Under the pieces are notes generated by a model. The model saw only the letters and a list, made by a program, of their open reading frames with translations. It was not told where the DNA came from and ran no database searches. Below are positions 35,997-51,233 of a stretch of DNA of 64,000 bases, in pieces. How positions within the stretch are numbered: the first letter of the stretch is position 1; every line of letters starts with the position of its first letter. The translations under genes were made by a program, and so were the position numbers. Source of the DNA: Planctomycetaceae bacterium (GTDB lineage: Bacteria; Planctomycetota; Planctomycetia; Pirellulales; Pirellulaceae); contig JAHEJI010000003.1 of NCBI GenBank assembly GCA_024638965.1, positions 1-64,000 of the forward strand. Direction: 5' to 3'.

Positions 35997-37049
35997 ATGA
36001 TGAATAAAGGTAATTCAATAGCGGCAGAATTACTTGCGGTGAGCGCTTCTGCCTACGCCGCATGTGCAAGCGATTGTTTTCTTGAAAAGCATCCGGACGT
36101 AAAAATTCAATTTGGCGAGTCCGCGTTTGTTCACTGGAAAGATCATTTTTGCCAACGCATTCGTGAACTATCTGCCGCAATGAACGAAAAACAACCTGCG
36201 TTGTTCTTGTCTCGAGTCCGTTGGTCTCGAGCTGCATTTCTCGCTCGGGAGGTTCCCGAGAATCTGCTTCGCGAAAGCCTGGTTTGTCTGGCCGAAGTGC
36301 TGGAGGAAGAATTACCAGAGGTCTGTTGCAAGGCTCCAACCGAGTACATCACAGCAGCTGTGAAATCATTCGAATTGTTAGAAGACAAGGCCGCCGAACT
36401 CGACACAAATGATCCCATTTCCAAACTGGCGATGCAATATTTGCTGCAAATCCTTGAGGGGAACAGCGCAGGTGCGATCGAGCTGATTATCGATGCGCAT
36501 GACAAGGGAATGTCATTCGAAAACACATATCAGGTGTTGATAACAGCGCAACGTGAGATCGGCAGGATGTGGCACGAGGCCGAGGTCAATATTGCCGAGG
36601 AACATATTGTTACCTCGACAACTGAACGCACCATGGCCGTATTAAGCTACAAGGGCCAAAGGCAAACTTCAAACGGCTTAACGGTGGTTGCCGCGGCCGT
36701 TGCAGGTAACGCACATGATATCGGAGTCCGTGTCGTGTCCGACTTTTTCGAACTCGCAGGTTGGCGAGTTGTTTGCCTTGGTGCCGATTTACCGGCAATC
36801 GACATTGCTCAGGCCGTCAATTACTTCGACGCCTCGCTCCTCCTGTTGTCGGCCGCCCTCAGCACGCAACTAAAGGCGGTTCGCCAAACCGTGCAAGCCG
36901 TGCGTCAATCGGACACAAAATGCAAAATCATGGTTGGTGGTTCTGCGCTACAAGACGCTCCGGATATTTGGCGACAATTGGGAGCTGATGCTTTTGCGTC
37001 CACTCCCTCCGACGCCGTGCTGACCGGTTTAGGTTTGATCGAGAATTGA
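35997..37049 (+). CDS. Cobalamin-binding (B12-binding) sensory domain protein, CarH/LitR-type
   Basis: W-x9-EH motif (WHEAEVNIAEEH) and B12 fold GNAHDIGVRVVSDFFELAGWRVVCLGADLP; no obvious HTH at N-terminus. Confidence 0.85.
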   Translation: MMNKGNSIAAELLAVSASAYAACASDCFLEKHPDVKIQFGESAFVHWKDHFCQRIRELSAAMNEKQPALFLSRVRWSRAAFLAREVPENLLRESLVCLAEVLEEELPEVCCKAPTEYITAAVKSFELLEDKAAELDTNDPISKLAMQYLLQILEGNSAGAIELIIDAHDKGMSFENTYQVLITAQREIGRMWHEAEVNIAEEHIVTSTTERTMAVLSYKGQRQTSNGLTVVAAAVAGNAHDIGVRVVSDFFELAGWRVVCLGADLPAIDIAQAVNYFDASLLLLSAALSTQLKAVRQTVQAVRQSDTKCKIMVGGSALQDAPDIWRQLGADAFASTPSDAVLTGLGLIEN

Positions 37050-37532: not shown

Positions 37533-40500
37533 GTGAATCTCAATCATAGCCATAAACCCTATGCGCCTCCCGATACTAACCTGGTTGATCGTCTGCGCTA
37601 TTGGAGCAAACAACAGCCGTCTCAGCCCGCGTTCTATTACTTGGGTCAACAAGAGCAGGTAACGCAGCTAACCTACTCAGAACTCTACCGGGAAGCGCGA
37701 GCGATCGCTGTTCAGTTGACCGAGATGGGGCTTAACGGCGAACGTGCTTTGTTGTTGTATCCGCCAGGGCTGGATTTCGTTGCGGCGTTTTTCGGATGCC
37801 TTTTCGCGGGAACGACTGCCGTTCCAGCTTTGCCACCGCGGCGGAATCGAAACATGGCGCGTGTCGAAGCAATCAGCGAAAACGCGCAGGCAGCTGTCGT
37901 ACTATCTGTTCAGGAGATCGTCGAACGGTCAGCGATTGTGTTGGATAATGCGCCCCACCTGAAGCAAGTTGACTGGCTGGCGACGGACCAGATTTCTGGT
38001 GAGCTGGCCAACGAGTGGTTTGGTGCGGATTTGTATGACGACACGCTTGCGGTTCTGCAATACACGTCAGGCTCGACGGGTCAGCCCAAAGGCGTGATGC
38101 TGACGCACGCGAATCTGATGCACAACTGTTCGTTGATCACGTACGGATTCGCAGCCGATCGAACGAGTTTGGGACTTTCCTGGTTGCCCACTTATCACGA
38201 CATGGGGTTGATTGGCGGAGTCCTCAATCCGCTCTACGTCGGCCGGCCAAATGTTCTCATGTCGCCCATGTCGTTTTTACAAAAACCGATCCGTTGGTTG
38301 CGCGGGATCAGCAAATTCAACGTGACGATCAGCGGCGGTCCAAATTTCGCCTACGCCCTGTGTAACGAAAAAATAACGGACGAAGATTGCGAAGGCCTGG
38401 ATCTAAGTAGTTGGAAAGTGGCCTATAACGGCGCTGAACCGATCCGCGCCGAAACACTTGCAAAGTTCAGCGAAAAATTCGAGCCATACGGTTTCCGAGC
38501 CGAATCACATTATCCCTGTTACGGAATGGCGGAAACGACCCTGATCGTTAGCGGTGCGGATTGTCGGAAACGACCTGTTGTCAGATCGGTTGACGCGAAA
38601 GAACTTGAAGGGAACCGCGTCGTCCTGGTTTCCGATGGAGCCAGTTTTGCGCGGCAACTGGTTGCCTCTGGACAAATCTTGTCAGACCAACAAGTCTTGA
38701 TCGTTGATCCTGTGACTTGCGAACCATTGTCGACTGACCAAGTCGGGGAGATTTGGGTTAGGAGCGATAGTGTTGCCCAAGGTTACTGGAACAACGAAGA
38801 GGAAACAAAACGGGCGTTTCAGGGACGGCTCGCAAACCGTGATAACGGTCAGTTCCTGCGAACCGGCGACCTGGGGTTCTTTCATGGCGACCAGTTGTTT
38901 GTAACGGGTCGCACCAAAGACTTGATCATTATTAACGGTCGAAATCTGTATCCGCATGATATCGAGTCGATTGCGGAACAGGCTCACGAGGCGATTCGAA
39001 TCGGTAGTGGTGTCGCGTTTTCGACTGAAATTGATAATTCCGAACAACTTGTCATCGCTCAGGAATTGGACCGCGGGCACCGAAAACACGACACCCGAGA
39101 AATTACGGCGGCGGTCCGTAAAGCTGTTTTTGAAATTCTGGAAGTCACGCCTCACACGATCGTGCTTCTAAAAACCGGAAGTCTGCCCAAGACGTCCAGC
39201 GGCAAAGTCCAACGCCAAGTCTGTCGAGAAAAATACCTGGCTGGACAACTTGATACGCTGGCCCAATGGCGGCGGGGCGAGGAATCTGAGGCACACACCT
39301 TTTCCGACGTTGCGGCGATCTCTCGAACAACTCCAGCTACGACAATTCCTTCCGCCAGCTCCATTGAATCGTGGTTGGTGCACCGCATTGCGAATCGCCT
39401 GAAGACTCCGCCTGCTCAATTGGATGTCAATGAATCTTTCGCTCATTTTGGTTTGGATTCCGTCGCACTTTTGGGTATCTCGGGCGAGCTTGAAGACTGG
39501 ATGGGTTGTTCCGTTTCTCCGAAACTGTTGTTCAACTATCCGACGATCGCGGAGTTATCCAGCCACCTCGCGACGTCGCTGAAGATCGAGCCAGAAAGCG
39601 CCGGCCCCAAAAACAAACAAGCGCAAAACGCTCTGATCGCAAACGGAATCGATGACCCAGAGAAATTATTCGAGACGGACGCCGAACCTTCGGCAAGCAG
39701 AATATTAGCCAACCTCGACAAAATGTCGGAATCCGACATTGACGAGATGTTGAAGAAAATGCTGAACCTGAATTTCAGCAAAAAACGCGAGTTGCTGAAA
39801 AAACTGCTGCAGGAAGAATCGGGCCGCGAGATTACCAATCATCCATTGTCTTACGGACAGCGAGCGTTGTGGTTCATCTATCAAATGGACCGAAACAGTT
39901 CGGCATACAACATCATGTACGCGACGCGAGTGAACGCGGGTTTCGACCGCGCAGCGTTTTGCAGAGCTTTTCAAACGATCTTGGACCGTCACGAGATCTT
40001 GCGAACGACGTACTCGATGCTCGATGGAATGCCAACTCAAAAAGTGCATCCGCGCCAAGCGTTTCAAATGCAAACTCTCGATGCACGAGACTGGCAACAG
40101 GAAAAACTCGACGCGACGATTGAGTCCGTTGCCGACGAGCCCTTCGATCTCGAAAACGGGCCTATTATTCGTGTGCAGCTGTTTGAAAGGAAAGGCAACC
40201 ACCACGTTTTGCTGTTCACCGTTCATCACATTGCACTCGATTTTTGGTCATTCGATTTGTTGTTCGATGAACTCGAGTTGTTGCACCGTGAGGAAACAAC
40301 CGGAAGGAAGTCGGACTTCTCGCAAACCGGGATTCCGTACGCTGACTTTGTTCGTCGACAGCAGCAAATAATGGACGGCAAGGAAGGCCAGCGGCAATGG
40401 GAATATTGGCACAAACAGCTTGAAGGCAAGTTGCCTGTCCTCGACCTTCCCACCGATTATCCGCGACCGCCATTGCAGTCGTACCGGGGAAAATCCTTTG

Positions 40501-43500
40501 ATTTCGATTTGGGGGACGACCTCTCAAGAAAACTGATGGACCTTTCCAAGTCTCAAGATGCAACGTTGTTTGCCACGTTTCTAGCGGCTTTTCAAGTGCT
40601 GTTGTATCGATACAGCGGTCAGGATGACATCCTCGTTGGCTCACCGACCGCCGGACGAAATCTGCCGGAATTTGAGAATGTTCTCGGCTATTTCCTCAAT
40701 CCAATCGTGTTGCGAGCCAAGTTATCGGCTGAAGAGACCTTCACGAGCTTTCTGGGACACGTCCGTAAAACACTAGTCGGTGGAATCACAAACCAGGACT
40801 ATCCGTTTCCGATGTTGGTCGAGCGATTACAAGCGCCCCGCGACGCAAGTCGTTCTCCGATTTTCCAGGTTGCAATTGGATGGGATAAACCTCGTAAACT
40901 GCACCTGGATCAAGCGCCCGATGCAAGTTCCAACGGCAAACCTGTTAATCTCGCCTCGCTCGGTTTGGAGCCGTTCGCATTGAGGCAGCAAGGTTCGGCG
41001 TTCGACTTGATGTTGATGGTTCTTCACGCCGACGATTCTGTATCGGCTGCGTTCCAATACAACTTGGACCTGTTTGACGAGTCGACCATTGTCAGGATGG
41101 TCGGACATTTTCAGAATTTGCTGGAAAGTATAGTCGACAATCCTGAACGTCCGCTTGCTGATTTAAAGTTGTTAAACAAAGCCGAAGAGAATCTGCTGCT
41201 TGAGGACTGGAACGACACGGCTGTCGAGTTTCCGCGCCCCTGTTGCTTGCATGAAATGTTTGAAGCGCAGGTTAGGCAAAAGCCGGATGCAATTGCGGTG
41301 CAGTGCAATGGCCAACAGCTGACCTACCGCGAACTCAACAAACTAGCCAATCAAGTTGCCCATTATCTGGCAAGTCTCGAAGTTGGACCAGATGTTCTGG
41401 TTGGAGTTTATCTCGACCGTTCCATTGAAATGATAGTTGGCCTACTGGGAGTCTTGAAAGCGGGCGGAGCTTATGTACCGCTTTCTCCGGGCACGCCCGC
41501 CGAACGTCTGGCTTTTCAGCTCGAAGAAAGTCAAGCGACCGTTGTCTTAACGCGACAGAAGCTGGCGGATGATCTTCCGAAACCGGGGCGCCAAATTGTC
41601 TGTCTTGACAGCGACTGGACCAAAATCGCCAAACAAGACAACACAGACAGACCACGACAAGCCGAGCCATCGAATCTGGCTTATGTGATTTTCACGTCGG
41701 GATCCACTGGTAAGCCAAAAGGTGTCCAAATCGAACATCGCGCGGTGGTGAATTTCCTGAGTTCGATGCAGCAGAAACCGGGAATCAACAGCGACGATGT
41801 ATTGTTGGCGGTAACAACGTTTACATTTGACATTTCGGTCCTGGAACTGTTTCTGCCGCTGACCGTGGGAGCCAAGGTGGTTATGGTTTGCCCGGGGGTC
41901 GCGGCTGATGGAGTTCAGTTGGCCGATGCGATTGCCGACTCCAAAGCAACCATCATGCAAGCCACACCGACAACTTGGCGACTGTTAGTCGAAGCGGGTT
42001 GGATGGGCGATCAACAACTAAAAATTCTCTGTGGCGGCGAGGCATTTCCTCCTGATCTTGCTGAGCAATTACTGGGCCGCTGTTCCAGCCTATGGAATAT
42101 GTACGGACCAACCGAAACAACAATTTGGTCGGCCATCGACCGTGTCCGAGAAAGATCGGATCCGATGCCGATCGGTCGTCCGATCGCCAACACCCAGATT
42201 TTTATACTCGATCGCCGCAGGCAACCTGTTCCATGTGGCGTCACGGGCGATCTTTACATCGGCGGCGAAGGACTTGCCCGTGGTTATCTGAATCAACCCG
42301 AATTGACTGCCGAGAAGTTTGTTGACGATCCGTTTCGCCGTAACCATCAGGCGAAGTTGTACAAGACTGGAGATCTGGCTCGCTTCCGCGCCGACGGCAA
42401 GATTGAATTTCTCGGTCGCGAAGATTTTCAGGTCAAAGTCCGCGGATTCCGGATTGAACTCGGCGAAATTGAATCGCGGCTGAGCGATCATCCCGCGATT
42501 CGCCAAACGGTTGTAATGGCCCGCGAATGCAGTTCTAGAATTGACGATAAACAATTGATTGCGTATTTCACCCATCACGACGTTCCAAACACAAGCGACT
42601 TGCGGGATTACCTGAAGCAAGAGTTGCCCGATTACATGTTGCCGTCCATGTTTGTTCCGTTGGACGAACTTCCGCTTAATCCTGTCGGCAAGGTTGATCG
42701 CCAGGCGTTGCCCGCCCCAGACACCGCAAGACCGGATCTGCGTGCTTCCTTCGTCAGACCGCGGAATGATGTGGAAGAAAAACTGGCTGAGATTTGGGCC
42801 AGAGTGCTCGGACTGGATGAGGTCGGCATTGAGGATAATTTTTTTGATCTCGGCGGAGCATCGATGCAGAGTCTTGAAATCACCACGCTTGCACACAAAG
42901 TCGGAATTGAGATTCTGCCTGCCTCGCTGTTCAAACATCCAACCATTGCAGAACTCTCCGCGAGTGGATTGTCCTGTACAAACGAAGTTAGCAGCGACGA
43001 ATCAGATATCGCCGTGGCGAATTCTGCATTCGACCCGATCGAGCCACAGATCGAAACAACAGCTCCCCTGGTCGAACCGCAAGATACGGCTTCATCGGAA
43101 ACCCGTAAAACCAACATCATCATCGAGAGTATCGGAGTTTATCTTCCGCCCAAGTCGGCCTCGACCGATGAAGTTGTTGCTGGCTGTAAGAACAAAATAG
43201 GGTTTCCGCTGGAAGAAATGACAGGGATCAATTCCCGTCGAGTGGCCGACGAAGACGAGTTTACCTCTGATCTTGCCAGCCATGCCGTCGCCGAATGTCT
43301 CGACAACTCAAAGTACACACCCGATCAGATCGACCTGGTCATTTGCTGCCATATTGGTCGTTATGAATCGGCGCGAGCCGCGGCACTCGAGCCCGGCACC
43401 GCGATGTATCTCAAGCAGCGGTTTCGATTTCCGAATGCGATCGCATTTGATGTTTCGAACGCGTGCGCCGGAATGTTCACCGGAATCAGCATCGCCGAAT

Positions 43501-45128
43501 CTTATATTAATTCCGGTGCTGCACGTCGAGTGATGTTGGTCAGTGCCGAACAACTTTCACCTGTGACGACAACGGCGCAGCAGGAAATCTCGGATTTCAT
43601 GGACCCGCGCATTGCTTGTCTAACGCTGGGCGACGCAGCCGCAGCAATTCTTCTGGAGGCCTCGTTGAAAAAGGATGTCGGCTTTCATGAATTGGAAATG
43701 TATTCGCTGTCAAAATACAGCTGGATGTGCGTGGGGCAGCCCACTGAACAGGAACACGGAGGCCCGATCCTCGTCGTTCCCGATCCAATCAAGCATACAA
43801 CAGTCGCAATCGAAAACTCGATCGCCCACTCCAAACACGTGCTGGACCGAAGTTCGTGGAAACCGGAAATGATGCAGCATGTAATTATGCACCAAACATC
43901 CGAACGATCTCTGCTCGACGGGGCACGCGCCATTAATGAAACGTTTCAACGCAAAATCTGCACGCCAGAAAACACGATCAACAATTTGAGCCAGCGAGGT
44001 AACACCGCATCCACCAGCCATTTCGTTGCCGTTTGGGACAACATTCTCAACGGCCACATTAAAAGTGGAGATAACGTCTTCTTCGCAATCACCGGCTCCG
44101 GACAAACCATCGGTACGGGAATATACACCTTTGATGATCTGCCCGATCGAATTCGGAAACGGACGGAATTGGGACACACAGCCGAAAAAGCGAAACAAAT
44201 TGATAAGTCTCAAAGCCCAGTTTCGATCAGCCCAGTACCTCGAATACGAGCGGCCAGTGTGGGGGTACTTTCGCCTGAAACCAAAGTGCCTACCGAAACG
44301 ATGCCGATGGTCAAAGAAGCGGTGGAAAACTGTCTGGCGAAATCTATCTACGACGGATCGGAGATTGACCTGGTTTTGTTCGCGGGCGTTTATCGAACGA
44401 AATTCATCTCCGAACCGGCACTGGCGACAATGATCGCTGGCGAATTGAAAATCAACGACAATATCAAACCCACAGATCAGCAGCGGACCTTCGCTTTTGA
44501 CGTGATCAATGGCGGCGTGGGATTCCTGAGCGCTTGCGATATCGCTGCCCAAATGATTCGCAGTAAAAAAATTCGCACTGCGTTAATCATCGCTTCGGAA
44601 ATTGAAAACAACCGTGAGCATTATCCGGACGAAGTATTTGGTTTGCAGGAAACGGCATCCGCGATCATCCTGGACCAGGCCGATCAAGCGAGGATTGGCT
44701 TTGGAGAATTTGTCTTCAAATACCTTCCCGAACATCTGGAGGCTCGTGTCGTCACCGGCAAATATATGAACGGCAAGCCATGTGTTTATCTCGAGCAAGA
44801 TCCATCGATCGCAGATCTATTTTTGAAGATCATCCCGGAGGCGGTCGACGAACTTCTCAAGCGTGAAGGGCTGTCGATGTCAGAGATCAGCATCGTTTTG
44901 CCGCCACAATTTTCAACCGGGTTCTTGACCGAATTGGGGCGCGTGCTGAATATTCCTCGGGAACGGTTCGTGGATCTCGTTGGCGACGGTAAAGACTGGT
45001 TCACCTCGGCACTTCCTTATACGCTGCACCGGATCGAAACTGAGGGTCTTGCCAAGCCAGGTGAGATCGGGCTGGTAATCAACGTTGGCTCCGGCCTTCA
45101 AGTCGGCTGTGCAATCTATAACTTTTAG
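37533..45128 (+). CDS. Hybrid megasynthase: FAAL - ACP - C - A - PCP - KASIII - degenerate KASIII
   Basis: FAAL (YTSGSTGQPKGVMLTHANLM, PTYHDMGLIGG); ACP FAHFGLDSVALL; C domain HHIALDFWS; A domain IFTSGSTGKPKGVQIEH, NMYGPTETTIWS, YKTGDLARF; PCP FFDLGGASMQSLE; KASIII VSNACAGM / MHQTSE / GNTAST; second KASIII-like C-terminal domain. Confidence 0.92.
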   Translation: MNLNHSHKPYAPPDTNLVDRLRYWSKQQPSQPAFYYLGQQEQVTQLTYSELYREARAIAVQLTEMGLNGERALLLYPPGLDFVAAFFGCLFAGTTAVPALPPRRNRNMARVEAISENAQAAVVLSVQEIVERSAIVLDNAPHLKQVDWLATDQISGELANEWFGADLYDDTLAVLQYTSGSTGQPKGVMLTHANLMHNCSLITYGFAADRTSLGLSWLPTYHDMGLIGGVLNPLYVGRPNVLMSPMSFLQKPIRWLRGISKFNVTISGGPNFAYALCNEKITDEDCEGLDLSSWKVAYNGAEPIRAETLAKFSEKFEPYGFRAESHYPCYGMAETTLIVSGADCRKRPVVRSVDAKELEGNRVVLVSDGASFARQLVASGQILSDQQVLIVDPVTCEPLSTDQVGEIWVRSDSVAQGYWNNEEETKRAFQGRLANRDNGQFLRTGDLGFFHGDQLFVTGRTKDLIIINGRNLYPHDIESIAEQAHEAIRIGSGVAFSTEIDNSEQLVIAQELDRGHRKHDTREITAAVRKAVFEILEVTPHTIVLLKTGSLPKTSSGKVQRQVCREKYLAGQLDTLAQWRRGEESEAHTFSDVAAISRTTPATTIPSASSIESWLVHRIANRLKTPPAQLDVNESFAHFGLDSVALLGISGELEDWMGCSVSPKLLFNYPTIAELSSHLATSLKIEPESAGPKNKQAQNALIANGIDDPEKLFETDAEPSASRILANLDKMSESDIDEMLKKMLNLNFSKKRELLKKLLQEESGREITNHPLSYGQRALWFIYQMDRNSSAYNIMYATRVNAGFDRAAFCRAFQTILDRHEILRTTYSMLDGMPTQKVHPRQAFQMQTLDARDWQQEKLDATIESVADEPFDLENGPIIRVQLFERKGNHHVLLFTVHHIALDFWSFDLLFDELELLHREETTGRKSDFSQTGIPYADFVRRQQQIMDGKEGQRQWEYWHKQLEGKLPVLDLPTDYPRPPLQSYRGKSFDFDLGDDLSRKLMDLSKSQDATLFATFLAAFQVLLYRYSGQDDILVGSPTAGRNLPEFENVLGYFLNPIVLRAKLSAEETFTSFLGHVRKTLVGGITNQDYPFPMLVERLQAPRDASRSPIFQVAIGWDKPRKLHLDQAPDASSNGKPVNLASLGLEPFALRQQGSAFDLMLMVLHADDSVSAAFQYNLDLFDESTIVRMVGHFQNLLESIVDNPERPLADLKLLNKAEENLLLEDWNDTAVEFPRPCCLHEMFEAQVRQKPDAIAVQCNGQQLTYRELNKLANQVAHYLASLEVGPDVLVGVYLDRSIEMIVGLLGVLKAGGAYVPLSPGTPAERLAFQLEESQATVVLTRQKLADDLPKPGRQIVCLDSDWTKIAKQDNTDRPRQAEPSNLAYVIFTSGSTGKPKGVQIEHRAVVNFLSSMQQKPGINSDDVLLAVTTFTFDISVLELFLPLTVGAKVVMVCPGVAADGVQLADAIADSKATIMQATPTTWRLLVEAGWMGDQQLKILCGGEAFPPDLAEQLLGRCSSLWNMYGPTETTIWSAIDRVRERSDPMPIGRPIANTQIFILDRRRQPVPCGVTGDLYIGGEGLARGYLNQPELTAEKFVDDPFRRNHQAKLYKTGDLARFRADGKIEFLGREDFQVKVRGFRIELGEIESRLSDHPAIRQTVVMARECSSRIDDKQLIAYFTHHDVPNTSDLRDYLKQELPDYMLPSMFVPLDELPLNPVGKVDRQALPAPDTARPDLRASFVRPRNDVEEKLAEIWARVLGLDEVGIEDNFFDLGGASMQSLEITTLAHKVGIEILPASLFKHPTIAELSASGLSCTNEVSSDESDIAVANSAFDPIEPQIETTAPLVEPQDTASSETRKTNIIIESIGVYLPPKSASTDEVVAGCKNKIGFPLEEMTGINSRRVADEDEFTSDLASHAVAECLDNSKYTPDQIDLVICCHIGRYESARAAALEPGTAMYLKQRFRFPNAIAFDVSNACAGMFTGISIAESYINSGAARRVMLVSAEQLSPVTTTAQQEISDFMDPRIACLTLGDAAAAILLEASLKKDVGFHELEMYSLSKYSWMCVGQPTEQEHGGPILVVPDPIKHTTVAIENSIAHSKHVLDRSSWKPEMMQHVIMHQTSERSLLDGARAINETFQRKICTPENTINNLSQRGNTASTSHFVAVWDNILNGHIKSGDNVFFAITGSGQTIGTGIYTFDDLPDRIRKRTELGHTAEKAKQIDKSQSPVSISPVPRIRAASVGVLSPETKVPTETMPMVKEAVENCLAKSIYDGSEIDLVLFAGVYRTKFISEPALATMIAGELKINDNIKPTDQQRTFAFDVINGGVGFLSACDIAAQMIRSKKIRTALIIASEIENNREHYPDEVFGLQETASAIILDQADQARIGFGEFVFKYLPEHLEARVVTGKYMNGKPCVYLEQDPSIADLFLKIIPEAVDELLKREGLSMSEISIVLPPQFSTGFLTELGRVLNIPRERFVDLVGDGKDWFTSALPYTLHRIETEGLAKPGEIGLVINVGSGLQVGCAIYNF

Positions 45129-45132
45129 GCCC

Positions 45133-45549
45133 ATGATTCGCGTATTTTTCAAAGCCTTTGTTAAATACCACCGCGGTCTGGCAAAAATGCCGCTGGCCTG
45201 GAAGCCCTGGTTAATCTCGTTGTTAGCCGCCAACATGATCGCGCCGCTGTTCTGGTTTGACCGACTCGAGGCTCAAGTTGTATTCGGCGTTGCTTTGTTG
45301 AACGCGACGACCTTTGTCATTCTGACCGCGACCAGTGGTTTTTCACGACTTCTTGGTTTGGCACACATCTACTGGATTCCGTTAATCTATTTTCTTTGGA
45401 TGCGCCTTGATTTGTTTCCCTCCGATACGGCTTACGGATTTTGGATACGAGCGGTCATCGTTTTGGATGCGGGATCAGTGGTACTCGATGCCGCGAACGT
45501 GTTTCGTTATTTCCGAGGCGAGCGCGAAGAAATGGTCAAAGGTCTCTAG
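45133..45549 (+). CDS. Small multi-pass membrane protein downstream of megasynthase
   Basis: MIRVFFKAFVKYHRGLAKMPLAWKPWLISLLAANMIAPLFWFDRLEAQVVFG, four hydrophobic segments; start 5 nt after megasynthase stop. Confidence 0.7.
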   Translation: MIRVFFKAFVKYHRGLAKMPLAWKPWLISLLAANMIAPLFWFDRLEAQVVFGVALLNATTFVILTATSGFSRLLGLAHIYWIPLIYFLWMRLDLFPSDTAYGFWIRAVIVLDAGSVVLDAANVFRYFRGEREEMVKGL

Positions 45550-45659: not shown

Positions 45660-46388
45660 TTATGCTTCCCAAAGTTCAATATTCAACTTTTCCCCATGCG
45701 GAAGGTTTACCGCCAACGCGATCACAAATGGGCCGTGAACTGACGGTTGCACGAATTGCCAATTCTGCGGGTGATCTTCAATCCTGGGACTGAAAGACAC
45801 ATTGATAAGTTGAGTCGCGGAGATATCGAATGAAAACTCCCGCAACGACAGTGACATTCCGATTCCACGGGCTTTGAGGTAGGCCTCTTTGAGTGTCCAA
45901 AATCGAAAGAAGGTCTCCGTCCGAAGAGACTCGGGAACCGAGTCAAGATATTCTCGTTCCTTCGCGGCAAAGACGCAGGGCGCGAGTCGTTCGATTTCGA
46001 CGTTCCGATCGATGTTCTCGCAATCGACGCCAATCTGACATCCGACCGTAACACCGCACAAAACGAGCCCATCGCAGTGAGACACGTTAAACCGTAGCTG
46101 CGACGGATTTTGCGTAGCGTCGATTTCTGGCTTTCCAAATTCACTGGTCTGGAAACGCCAATCGCCCGACTTTTCAGCCGAATATCGCGACAGCGTTTTA
46201 CGCAGTAAAGCCCGTGCGATAAGGAATTGATCGCGATCTTTCTGGAAAACAAATCGTTGGTGCCGCTCGCGTTCGTCGCCGGACATCAGGTCATGGTAAA
46301 GAGTGAGCCATTCCCTTCGCTTGACATCTTCCGTCCGAACGTACCAAAGATGAATATCTCCCCGGATTAGCTCAATCAAATCCGACAA
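45660..46388 (-). CDS. 4'-phosphopantetheinyl transferase (Sfp/AcpT superfamily)
   Basis: LRFNVSHCDGLVLCGVTVGCQIGVDCENIDR and FFRFWTLKEAYLKARGIGMSLSLREFSF motifs. Confidence 0.93.
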   Translation of the reverse strand: MSDLIELIRGDIHLWYVRTEDVKRREWLTLYHDLMSGDERERHQRFVFQKDRDQFLIARALLRKTLSRYSAEKSGDWRFQTSEFGKPEIDATQNPSQLRFNVSHCDGLVLCGVTVGCQIGVDCENIDRNVEIERLAPCVFAAKEREYLDSVPESLRTETFFRFWTLKEAYLKARGIGMSLSLREFSFDISATQLINVSFSPRIEDHPQNWQFVQPSVHGPFVIALAVNLPHGEKLNIELWEA

Positions 46389-46882: not shown

Positions 46883-47629
46883 ATGAACACAATTCTCAAA
46901 TCGCTGACCGCAGTAGCATTTCCTATCGCAGTCCTGATCTTGTCAACGACAAGCATGCCAGCTCAACAAACCAAGCCCGCGGAAATGGTGAAAGATCATT
47001 CACCGGTCGGGACCTGGATCTGGGAACGAAAGTCCGGCGATAAAATGATCGAATCCAAAGTCACTATCGCGGAAAAGGACGGTAAGTTTTCGGGAAAAGT
47101 CAAAGACGAAGAACACGATTTAGAAATCAAAAACAGCGCACTGAAAGACGGCACGTTCTCGTTTGAAGTTTTTCCACATCCTGAAGCACCAACGGCCGCG
47201 ATCAAATTCGAAGGCAAGGTTTCAGCCGACAAAATCGCTGGGACCATGAGCTACACGGTCAACGACGAAGACAAGTCGATTCCGTGGACGGCCAAGAAAT
47301 ACGATCCCATGACTCCCGTCATCGGGAAGTGGTTATTGGAATTTGAGACGCCCGACGGAAATGCCCTTTCATTCAAGATTCAGGCAAAGAAAAAGGGTAA
47401 ACGTCTGGGAGTTACTTTTGTTGACGACAAAACGGCCAAAGTCCGCAGCGTCAAGTTCAAGGATGGTGTCTTGACCTTTTCAACAAAGCAGGATTATCAG
47501 GACCAACCTATATCCGTCGACTGGGACCTAACCATTGAAGGAAATCAGGTTAACGGAGTGCTTTATTATTATTTCGACGAAACGCAAGATGAAGGCGAAA
47601 TTGAAGTCACCGGCGAACGAGTCAAATAG
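46883..47629 (+). CDS. Hypothetical secreted beta-rich protein
   Basis: Signal peptide plus repeated WDLTIEGNQVNGVL / SGKVKDEEHDLEIKN type strands. Confidence 0.7.
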   Translation: MNTILKSLTAVAFPIAVLILSTTSMPAQQTKPAEMVKDHSPVGTWIWERKSGDKMIESKVTIAEKDGKFSGKVKDEEHDLEIKNSALKDGTFSFEVFPHPEAPTAAIKFEGKVSADKIAGTMSYTVNDEDKSIPWTAKKYDPMTPVIGKWLLEFETPDGNALSFKIQAKKKGKRLGVTFVDDKTAKVRSVKFKDGVLTFSTKQDYQDQPISVDWDLTIEGNQVNGVLYYYFDETQDEGEIEVTGERVK

Positions 47630-47717: not shown

Positions 47718-48446
47718 TCAATCTGAAGTCGAAGAATGAAGATGCGAATCAGCGTTTTTTTCTCTCAGTCCCTGTAAAAACATCACTTGCTTGGGCGATG
47801 CGAACCGATGTTCGGGTCCGCCCAGGCGCTCAAATGCTTCTTTCACTTCGGGCTGGCGAATGTCCGCTTCGGTGAAAAGCGTGTTGAAAGAGCGGCCCGC
47901 AAAATGTTTGGCAAAGCCATCCCACGAATCATATTGGGCAAAGTTGTGATAGGTGACGACTTCAGCCGAAATAAAGGCAGGAATTGCCAGTTCCTCTAAC
48001 GCTTGCCAGGCAGCTGCACGCTCCTGGTCCTCGTTGTGAAACAGCTTCATCACTTCGTTGAACGGACAATCGATCGGCTCGATTACGTAGAGAAAACCAT
48101 CCGGTTTGAGGACACGCACAACTTCATCAAATACGGGCTGGTAAATGTCGGCTGGAATGTGATGTAACGAGTAAGCAAAAAAAACGCCGTCGACTGTCTT
48201 CGACTGGACTGGAAGTCGATCTGCTCCGGTTTCAACGAATTCGACGTTGGCAATCGGTTCTGCGGCACGATTGAGTTCAGCCTGAACTGGATCGGGATCA
48301 ATCGCCAACACACGCGCGCCATGATCGACCAGGGGACGTGTGAATGCCATGCCACCGCAGCCCGCATCAATCACGAACTTCCCTTCGAGTGAAACGAATC
48401 GCTTGATTACTTCAATGTTGGTCGTGCAGCCAAGGTCTCTGGTCAA
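47718..48446 (-). CDS. Class I SAM-dependent methyltransferase
   Basis: GKFVIDAGCGGMAFTRPLVDHGARVLAIDPDPVQ, VDGVFFAYSLHHIP. Confidence 0.88.
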   Translation of the reverse strand: MTRDLGCTTNIEVIKRFVSLEGKFVIDAGCGGMAFTRPLVDHGARVLAIDPDPVQAELNRAAEPIANVEFVETGADRLPVQSKTVDGVFFAYSLHHIPADIYQPVFDEVVRVLKPDGFLYVIEPIDCPFNEVMKLFHNEDQERAAAWQALEELAIPAFISAEVVTYHNFAQYDSWDGFAKHFAGRSFNTLFTEADIRQPEVKEAFERLGGPEHRFASPKQVMFLQGLREKNADSHLHSSTSD

Positions 48447-48653: not shown

Positions 48654-49655
48654 ATGGCAACCGTAAAAGCGTATGCGGCGATGAAAGCCGAGGGCGAATT
48701 TCAGCCGTTTGAATATGATTTGCCCACGATCGGGCCGGAACAAGTCGATATCGATGTCGAATCGTGCGGAATTTGTCACAGTGATCTTTCAATGCGCGAT
48801 AACGAATGGCAAATGACAGAGTATCCGTTTGTCGGCGGGCACGAAGTGATCGGCAAGGTCGCGGCCACGGGTGAACTTGTAACAAGCGTGCAAGTCGGTG
48901 ACCGAGTTGGGTTGGGCTGGTTCTCGCGATCGTGTATGCATTGTGATCAATGTTTGGGTGGTGACCAGAATCTCTGCCTCGCGGCCGAAGGAACCGTCAC
49001 TCATCAAATGGGTGGCTTTGCAGACAAAGTTCGCTGCCACTGGGCATGGGCGGTGCCGATTCCGGACGGCCTCCCAGCCGAAAAGTCCGGACCGCTGCTA
49101 TGTGGCGGCATCACGGTCTTCAATCCGATCGTACAACATGGGTTGTCACCGACCGCCCGCGTCGGCGTCGTTGGAATCGGCGGATTGGGCCATATGGCGG
49201 TTAAGTTTTTGCGGGCTTGGGGTTGCGAAGTGACTGCATTTTCACGCAGTCGGGCCAAAGAAGAATCGGCTCGCGAATTGGGAGCTCACGAATACGTTGC
49301 CACCAGCGAAGACGGAGCTTTGGAATCTGTCGCGGGAAAATTCGACTTAATTCTCAACACAACGAACGTCGACTTGCCCTGGGATGCATATGTCGCAGCG
49401 CTTGCGACTAAAGGCGTCTTGCATACTGTCGGTGCGGCACCAAAAGTCGAAGCTGCAATCTTTCCGATGATCGTTGGGCAGAAATCTTTGGCCTCATCGC
49501 CGCTCGGTGGTATCGCAACGACTCGCAAAATGATTGAGTTTTGCGCCCGCCACGACATCACGCCGAATGTCGAGACGTTTGCGATGAGCGACATCAACGA
49601 TGCTTTTGAACGGCTCAAACAAGCGCCACCTCTTCGAGTCGTGTTGACTCGTTAA
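48654..49655 (+). CDS. Zinc-dependent NAD(P)-dependent alcohol dehydrogenase (YahK/cinnamyl-type)
   Basis: SCGICHSDLSMRDNEW, GGHEVIGKV, GWFSRSCMHCDQCLGGDQNLC, VGVVGIGGLGHMAVKF. Confidence 0.92.
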   Translation: MATVKAYAAMKAEGEFQPFEYDLPTIGPEQVDIDVESCGICHSDLSMRDNEWQMTEYPFVGGHEVIGKVAATGELVTSVQVGDRVGLGWFSRSCMHCDQCLGGDQNLCLAAEGTVTHQMGGFADKVRCHWAWAVPIPDGLPAEKSGPLLCGGITVFNPIVQHGLSPTARVGVVGIGGLGHMAVKFLRAWGCEVTAFSRSRAKEESARELGAHEYVATSEDGALESVAGKFDLILNTTNVDLPWDAYVAALATKGVLHTVGAAPKVEAAIFPMIVGQKSLASSPLGGIATTRKMIEFCARHDITPNVETFAMSDINDAFERLKQAPPLRVVLTR

Positions 49656-49994: not shown

Positions 49995-51233
49995 TTACTG
50001 GTCAGCAATCTTGACCATTGATAACGAACTCTCCGCCGCATTAAGTTCGACCTTGAAATTCCCTAGGAAAGTCATTCCCAACAGAGCTTCGGCGTTGGGC
50101 GCGTCAGTACCCAAAACGACGCAAGTGACATCTTCGACGGTGAACTTGCCCACACGAATCGATTTGGCACTGATGAGTTGCCCTTGAATTTTCCGACCGT
50201 CTGCGAGTGTTAATTCGATCTTGGGATCGTCGGGCCTGGGCTGCAATCCAAACTGACTGGCAGTTCGCCAAGGCAAAGTAACGGCACTGGCACCCGAATC
50301 AACGATCATTTCGGTCGTATGCTTGCCATTCAAGTTCACGGCCACCGAATATGTATTGCCTCTTCTTTGTAACGGAATCGACTCAGACAAAACCGTATCT
50401 TCCAAGTCTTTCAGCCGTTTCATGGAGCGCGAGAAGGACTTGGTTTCTGCAAGCCGGAGATCCAGCCCAGTCTTCTTTTTCGCTTCGTCGATCAGCGCCT
50501 TGAGCTTGTCATCGTTCGCCAATTCCAAGCGGTATTTTGAAATCTCGTCCGCGATGTTTCGCAGATTGAGTGTGTGTTGCAGGTACGTATCGCGCTCTTT
50601 GCTGAGTTCTTTTCGAACTGATTCTAGATTCTCCTGCAGCACTTCGAATTCATCATAGATGAGCAGCATTTTGGCTCGGTTGGCTTCGATCGCTCCTACA
50701 ATCTGATTATTCTTCAACACATCTTTGGGGCCAATTTTGGCCAACTCAGCGTTGAGTTGGCCGTCCAAAATCGTAAGTTGTCTTAATTGGTTCCGATATT
50801 CCAGCTCTAGAGCCATTGCCCGTTTAATCTTATTCTGCAAGTCGTTCAGATTTTTGCGGACCCTCCTCGCATCGGAAAATCCTCGACTTAACTTGGTCTC
50901 TTCGTTCAAAGCGAGTTCGTTGTTGGAAACGCGAACGCCCAACTTAGCGAATTTATTTCTCAACTCCTTGTCAATTTTTTTCGTAACGGATTTGCCAGGA
51001 TCGCTTTTCGATTCGATATATATCCGATCGGCATCCGAAAATACGGACAGGGAGACTTCGATTGTCTCTCCATCTGATTTCTTCAGCTTCACCTGATCAC
51101 CTTTGATCGAAACAAAGGTCGCTTCGACGGTGTAACTTCCGTTTTTACTGGACCAGGTTCGAATTTCTTCCTGGGCAGGCGTTTGAAAACAAATACAAAA
51201 AACGATCAACACCGAAAAGAGGATTCGTTGCAT
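49995..51233 (-). CDS. Secreted retropepsin-like aspartic protease with N-terminal SHD1-like domain
   Basis: EIRTWSSKNGSYTVEATFVSIKGDQVKLKKSDGETIEVSLSVFSDADRIYI (SHD1) and MIVDSGASAVTLPW...ALLGMTFLGNFKVEL (aspartyl protease). Confidence 0.8.
   Translation of the reverse strand: MQRILFSVLIVFCICFQTPAQEEIRTWSSKNGSYTVEATFVSIKGDQVKLKKSDGETIEVSLSVFSDADRIYIESKSDPGKSVTKKIDKELRNKFAKLGVRVSNNELALNEETKLSRGFSDARRVRKNLNDLQNKIKRAMALELEYRNQLRQLTILDGQLNAELAKIGPKDVLKNNQIVGAIEANRAKMLLIYDEFEVLQENLESVRKELSKERDTYLQHTLNLRNIADEISKYRLELANDDKLKALIDEAKKKTGLDLRLAETKSFSRSMKRLKDLEDTVLSESIPLQRRGNTYSVAVNLNGKHTTEMIVDSGASAVTLPWRTASQFGLQPRPDDPKIELTLADGRKIQGQLISAKSIRVGKFTVEDVTCVVLGTDAPNAEALLGMTFLGNFKVELNAAESSLSMVKIADQ

Follow-up and report, generated by a model that had tools for sequence, protein, structure and literature searches.

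How does a lipopeptide assembly line let go of its product when it ends in two ketoacyl synthase domains? The question is raised by one gene in the 64,000-nucleotide stretch of Planctomycetaceae DNA that we analyzed (the window), which belongs to a host genome of 5.7 Mb in 292 contigs. A single unbroken frame encodes FAAL-ACP-C-A-PCP followed by two domains of the KASIII fold, which we call KAS1 and KAS2 (Table 1). The first-pass annotation had proposed this order for the 2531-aa protein, and searches of Pfam, NCBIfam, and PDB bear it out. Pfam detected two AMP-binding domains (3.4e-157), two PP-binding domains, and, at the C terminus, two copies each of ACP_syn_III and ACP_syn_III_C. The first adenylating domain grouped with fatty-acid--AMP ligases (NCBIfam PRK05850, 484 bits). 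No thioesterase or reductase family was found in the synthase with Pfam, and the line terminates in KAS1-KAS2. The specificity code of the A domain (DILQLGMIWK), which we take to denote glycine from established code tables, predicts glycine as its substrate. The condensation domain of the synthase is the only strong one in the host genome (353 bits; elsewhere there is one weak 30.9-bit match), and the genome also carries two other FabH-like genes. A separate OleA-like gene lies elsewhere in this genome (L109:1501-2637, G000:C16) and scores above the PRK09258 cut-off.

Table 1. Features of the synthase gene and its conserved neighbors in the window.
Feature	Position	Strand	Evidence or residues
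Synthase ORF	37533..45128	+	2531 aa; GTG start at 37533, stop at 45126-45128
FAAL domain	37569..39263	+	aa 13-577; Pfam AMP-binding and PF23024 (FAAL-type C-terminal domain, aa 463-577); PRK05850
ACP	39348..39587	+	aa 606-685; GLDSVAL serine is the phosphopantetheine site; Pfam PP-binding, aa 614-679
Condensation domain	39828..41207	+	aa 766-1225; HHIALDF motif; Pfam Condensation, aa 770-1222, 347.7 bits
Adenylation domain	41253..42707	+	aa 1241-1725; Pfam, with AMP-binding_C at aa 1645-1720; code DILQLGMIW(K) by motif alignment
PCP	42738..42947	+	aa 1736-1805; LGGAS serine; second Pfam PP-binding stretch
KAS1, active KASIII	43110..44159	+	Cys1978, His2120, Asn2157, Glu1953
KAS1 Cys1978 codon	43464-43466	+	
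KAS1 His2120 codon	43890-43892	+	
KAS1 Asn2157 codon	44001-44003	+	
KAS1 Glu1953 codon	43389-43391	+	
KAS2, dead KASIII	44235..45125	+	Gly/Ala/Ser for Cys, Pro for His; keeps Glu2294 (44412-44414), equivalent to OleA Glu117
Small predicted membrane protein	45133..45549	+	begins immediately past the synthase stop; 8 genome_contigs loci have an adjacent homologue
4'-Phosphopantetheinyl transferase (PPTase)	45660..46388	-	Pfam ACPS, 67.5 bits

The two C-terminal halves share a fold but differ in their catalytic residues. Both matched KASIII enzymes in the PDB search, and KAS2 was detectable from sequence alone (phmmer E = 6.9e-15 versus 2ebd). KAS1 carries the motifs NACAGM, MHQTS, and RGNTA, which contain the KASIII Cys, His, and Asn, while KAS2 reads NGGVGF, LPPQ, and GDGKDWF at the matching places. 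The triad was intact in KAS1 of all 81 aligned pairs, and KAS2 had the Cys or the His in 0/81; the conservation of the KAS1 Cys is partly built in for the genome_contigs loci described below because one of two search patterns includes it, a bias that affects neither the pairs from same-order genomes, nor the Glu discussed below, nor KAS2. At the Asn position, KAS2 has Asp in 23 and Asn in 2 of the 27 sequences of a joint alignment. KAS2 is also the faster-evolving half, with a mean identity of 45% versus 57% for KAS1. Judged by these residues, KAS1 is active, KAS2 is catalytically dead, and the halves are not equivalent. A tandem duplication of two working KASIII enzymes is ruled out, since KAS2 is dead in every member. 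The earlier description of two KASIII domains thus stands for the fold but not for their equivalence.

A PCP-KASIII fusion had been flagged as unusual, which it is, but it is no one-off. A first search covered 295 genomes from the order of the host and returned matches in 13 further genomes. Twelve further loci aligned over the full pair, and the rest were one fragment and two KAS1-only matches. Some of these pairs are fused to C-A-PCP and others are free-standing 671-aa proteins directly after a C-A-PCP gene; in all full pairs, the KAS1 triad is present and the KAS2 Cys and His are absent. We then scanned genome_contigs with an alignment of eleven pairs and kept 80 loci out of 310 candidates. 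Among the groups represented are Planctomycetota, Mycobacterium, Mycolicibacter, and Nocardia (Mycobacteriaceae among them), Ktedonobacteria (Chloroflexota), Lentisphaeria (Lentisphaerota), and Bacteroidota (Ferruginibacter, Flavihumibacter, Algoriphagus, Pontibacter, and Gramella), as well as single MAGs labelled Acidobacteriota, Gemmatimonadetes, and Betaproteobacteria. C-A-PCP-KAS1-KAS2 occurs in one ORF in 47 of the 80 loci, 24 are free-standing pairs (part of them beside PKS/NRPS genes, part not), and the remainder are longer or cut versions. As a didomain that terminates the line, KAS1-KAS2 recurs across several phyla. The complete FAAL-ACP-C-A-PCP-KAS1-KAS2 architecture was found in only one of the 80 loci, a 2517-aa ORF of the Planctomycetaceae MAG Ww147 (L030; 68% identity to the window over the KAS pair), and the pair of another Pirellulaceae MAG (L029) is 93% identical to that of the window. 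Chance and misassembly are excluded by these two loci, and the relatives in same-order genomes and genome_contigs rule out a planctomycete oddity. Two planctomycete loci (L080:3875-9019 and L087:6944-12007) carry FAAL-ACP-(weak PCP)-KAS1-KAS2; about 220 aa separate the ACP from KAS1, and no C or A domain was detected there.

The amino acid specified upstream of the pair varies. The code DILQLGMIWK occurs in the group around the window, most mycobacteria have DPWHFSLIVK (presumably serine type, from established code tables), and others occur elsewhere. Since the codes differ, the pair seems to act at the carboxyl end whatever the side chain. A Ser-like code is also present in Ktedonobacteria.

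We next focused on a Glu-Pro motif shared by the two halves, which was kept in 81/81 KAS1 and 81/81 KAS2 sequences. In OleA, a glutamate of one subunit serves as the general base in the active site of its partner, and this residue (E117) followed by proline is a hallmark of OleA homologues (PMC7064751). We located the Glu117 position through a PDB search with the OleA-like protein of the host: it is the E of DYLEPSTA in 3row, and the active Cys follows 26 residues later. The residue numbers are those of the OleA literature, and the offset from 3row also holds for Cys143 and Asn315. In the joint alignment, Glu occupied this position in 31/31 OleA, 27/27 KAS1, and 27/27 KAS2 sequences but in 0/18 FabH-like controls taken from the same phylum, and Pro followed it in all of the OleA (including 3row), KAS1, and KAS2 sequences. 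KAS1 has the residues at the OleA Glu117-Pro and Cys143-His285-Asn315 positions, whereas KAS2 keeps only Glu-Pro, with Glu435-Pro436-Ala437 (pair numbering) among its few near-invariant positions. In PpyS, E105 has been assigned this base function by modelling, and no product forms with the E105A variant (PMC4578411). In the lipstatin synthase heterodimer LstAB, the triad belongs to LstA, and E60 of LstB is essential (PMC12141560).

An AF2 model of the 672-aa KAS1-KAS2 pair had a pLDDT of 87.2 and a pTM of 0.92, so confidence is high both for each half and for how the two are placed relative to each other. Foldseek matched this model to FabH-type structures, each covering about one half. In a tree, KAS1 and KAS2 formed two separate clades with 100% support, apart from both OleA and FabH. 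Because the clades lie outside OleA, our claim is that the pair works like OleA or LstAB, not that it is an OleA.

The reading we favor, at a probability of roughly 60%, is that the pair is a covalently fused, LstAB/OleA-like pseudo-heterodimer that frees the NRPS chain by non-decarboxylative Claisen condensation. By established domain logic, the FAAL would activate a fatty acid and load it onto the ACP, and the C domain would couple the fatty acyl group to the PCP-bound glycine to yield N-acyl-glycyl-S-PCP. The pair would then release this chain in place of a thioesterase or reductase. KAS1 and KAS2 probably pack like the subunits of a FabH or OleA dimer and would form one working active site, with Cys1978, His2120, and Asn2157 from KAS1 and with Glu2294 of KAS2 acting as the general base across the interface. 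Cys1978 would carry one acyl unit (either N-acylglycyl or a fatty acyl group supplied by CoA or ACP), Glu2294 would remove a proton from an acyl alpha-carbon, and the resulting carbanion would attack the other thioester, with no CO2 lost. The released beta-keto acid would, in the host genome, most likely decarboxylate to an N-acyl-alpha-aminoketone (R-CO-NH-CH2-CO-CH2-R'). Beyond the domains, residues, conservation, and recurrence observed, we infer the second substrate, the direction of condensation (either would lead to the same kind of skeleton), and the product, which is probably a long-chain N-acyl-α-aminoketone or its β-keto acid because the A-domain code predicts glycine. One observation counts against a single active site: Glu1953 of KAS1 is as invariant as the KAS2 Glu and would, in the pseudo-heterodimer model, point into the dead KAS2 site. 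Glu1953 could have a structural role, or two chains may also pair through their KAS1 halves. Also against the favored reading are the position of both halves in clades outside OleA and the lack of OleD/OleC-type genes beside the window synthase. In its favor are the Ole-like gene order at two Bacteroidota loci, the nocuolin precedent, and the minimal FAAL-ACP-(weak PCP)-KAS1-KAS2 lines.

Other reactions were weighed against the same evidence. KAS1 might perform a FabH-type decarboxylative extension, condensing the N-acylglycyl chain with malonyl-ACP or malonyl-CoA; the product would be a 4-acylamino-3-oxobutanoyl thioester or, after hydrolysis and CO2 loss, an acylamino methyl ketone. FabH has the thiolase fold with Cys-His-Asn, as has KAS1 with its complete triad (but not KAS2, which is without the Cys and His), and FabH supplies the best PDB and NCBIfam matches, although the KAS1 score of 121 bits is below the NCBIfam fabH cut-off of 292 (TIGR00747). 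We nevertheless consider such an extension unlikely, as the non-acidic interface residue (usually Phe) that precedes Pro in FabH is replaced by Glu in both halves of all members, and the extension gives no reason for conserving a dead partner that retains its Glu. KAS1 could instead transfer the N-acylglycyl group to an O or N nucleophile, as CerJ-type KASIII enzymes do, to form an ester or amide. Acylating ketosynthases are known from the cervimycin, xenocyloin, and nonactin systems (PMC4578411), and the varied amino acid codes are what would be expected of a general off-loader. Acyl transfer, however, needs neither a complete triad nor a Glu base, both of which are conserved, and no conserved gene for an acceptor substrate was seen among the neighbors, making this route quite improbable. 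A PqsBC-like arrangement, in which KAS2 is a mere scaffold and the nucleophile that KAS1 condenses with its acyl group is a soluble beta-keto acid, would account for the dead half: none of the three catalytic residues is present in PqsB, and PqsBC resembles the homodimer of FabH (PMC4807248). PqsC has Cys-His without the Asn, though, whereas KAS1 has it in 81/81 pairs, and a pure scaffold leaves the invariant Glu-Pro of KAS2 unexplained; we regard this arrangement as very doubtful. Intramolecular cyclization to a tetramate or pyrone is scarcely credible: the KS-AT-MT modules without KR in two relatives (L017 and L085) would supply a cyclizable beta-keto amide, but most relatives carry KR, and the window chain has no beta-keto group because its synthase is without a PKS module. 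The Glu-Pro motif, specific to OleA-type enzymes, points to head-to-head, non-decarboxylative condensation over malonyl extension or ester/amide formation. Among the outcomes first suggested for KASIII off-loading, C-C bond formation is the best supported, and the other two lose ground on this motif.

Each part of the system has a known counterpart. LstA/LstB of Streptomyces toxytricini is similar in residue pattern, with a Cys-His-Asn subunit and a partner bearing an essential Glu (LstB was compared by its published description); in both systems two divergent KASIII-like halves always occur together, and LstAB performs the non-decarboxylative condensation that we propose for the KAS pair. LstA and LstB, however, are separate proteins that use acyl-CoA, whereas KAS1 and KAS2 are one covalent unit, either joined to an NRPS/PKS or encoded next to it. 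OleA (PRK09258/NF006720) is a homodimer of active subunits, and KAS1 scores 113-114 bits (113.9 for PRK09258) against a cut-off of 285. PqsBC of the Pseudomonas quinolone pathway likewise joins an active and a dead KASIII in a FabH-like pseudo-dimer but consists of separate chains and takes a soluble beta-keto acid as substrate. In nocuolin A biosynthesis, two acyl-ACPs are condensed to a beta-keto acid by a ketosynthase that is supplied by a FAAL-ACP (PMC11837247); NocH and NocG are separate proteins with no NRPS module at that step. The FAAL-ACP-C-A-PCP loading and elongation section resembles FAAL-initiated lipopeptide NRPS/PKS lines, which normally end in a thioesterase or reductase. The paper on stieleriacines (planctomycete N-acyl tyrosines) covers N-acyl amino acid synthases, with no ketoacyl synthase or FAAL, and a link to these compounds was therefore rejected.

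While the parts are of known kinds, their fusion into an NRPS terminus seems not to have been described. A search of the open-access literature found no description of an NRPS ending in a KASIII pair, which is weak evidence of absence, and a FAAL review makes no mention of FabH, KAS, or ketoacyl. If the proposed condensation is correct, the pair represents a new mode of NRPS/PKS chain release, in which a fused active/dead KASIII pair ends the line by linking its chain to another acyl chain through a C-C bond, in several phyla that include many mycobacterial species. It also makes the retention of a pseudoenzyme domain for one catalytic residue directly testable and offers a simple genome-mining signature (one half with Cys-His-Asn, followed by one that has Glu-Pro but neither Cys nor His). 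More speculatively, the family could be an assembly-line route to ceramide-like lipids, in which the amide bond forms first on the NRPS and the C-C bond follows on the KASIII pair. With Gly in the window and a Ser-like code in mycobacteria and Ktedonobacteria, the products would be N-acyl-3-keto-sphingoid lipids or 1-deoxymethyl analogues. We hold this joint reading to be improbable. Elsewhere, the C-C bond of the sphingoid route is made by serine palmitoyltransferase with PLP.

Among the nearby window ORFs tested, only two recur beside the synthases of relatives, namely the small predicted membrane protein and the PPTase. The membrane character of the former was judged by eye from four hydrophobic stretches; its homologues directly follow the synthase in the glycine-coding planctomycete group and had no Pfam match. 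A PPTase of the same family lies within the cluster in 19 loci. The earlier suggestion of this enzyme as a partner is sound because it is conserved beside the synthase in relatives, and it likely primes the ACP and PCP.

The neighborhoods of more distant pairs differ. In Ferruginibacter paludis (L038, 4118-12004) and the Bacteroidota MAG KLAP56 (L101, 5610-11995), the pair is directly preceded by genes for an alpha/beta-hydrolase and an AMP-ligase and by an OleD match, which at 416-417 bits stays below the NCBIfam cut-off of 580. By their matches, these genes are OleB-, OleC-, and OleD-like in order, with the pair standing where OleA would be, and the two loci are possible lipo-beta-lactone clusters. 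OleC/OleD was rejected as a general partner, being seen in only 2/80 loci; OleD had no match above the cut-off in the genome of the window, and OleD/OleC-type genes are not beside its synthase. In Bacteroidota, a P450 follows the pair, with a luciferase-like monooxygenase and a PKS opposite. In mycobacteria, a 3β-HSD-type SDR, which matches HpnA/SdmB better than OleD, often follows the pair, and export genes are nearby. Widespread mycobacterial clusters (L045-L104) have the form FAAL-ACP-KS-AT-KR-ACP / C-A(Ser-type)-PCP-KAS1-KAS2 and also carry SDR, FAD oxidase, amidase, and ABC/FtsX export genes. The open-access literature searched gave no product for mycobacterial KAS1-KAS2 clusters.

Three other window genes were rejected as pathway members: a methyltransferase (47718-48446) and an Ahr-like alcohol dehydrogenase (48654-49655) do not recur beside relatives, and a B12-binding protein (35997-37049) has no counterpart there. 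The latter (350 aa, B12-binding_2 plus B12-binding) precedes the synthase in the same orientation and could be a cobalamin-dependent regulator. Between the PPTase and the methyltransferase is a 248-aa ORF (46883-47629) with no Pfam or NCBIfam match. Farther downstream, the gene at 49995-51233 joins an SHD1 domain to a retropepsin-like aspartyl protease domain.
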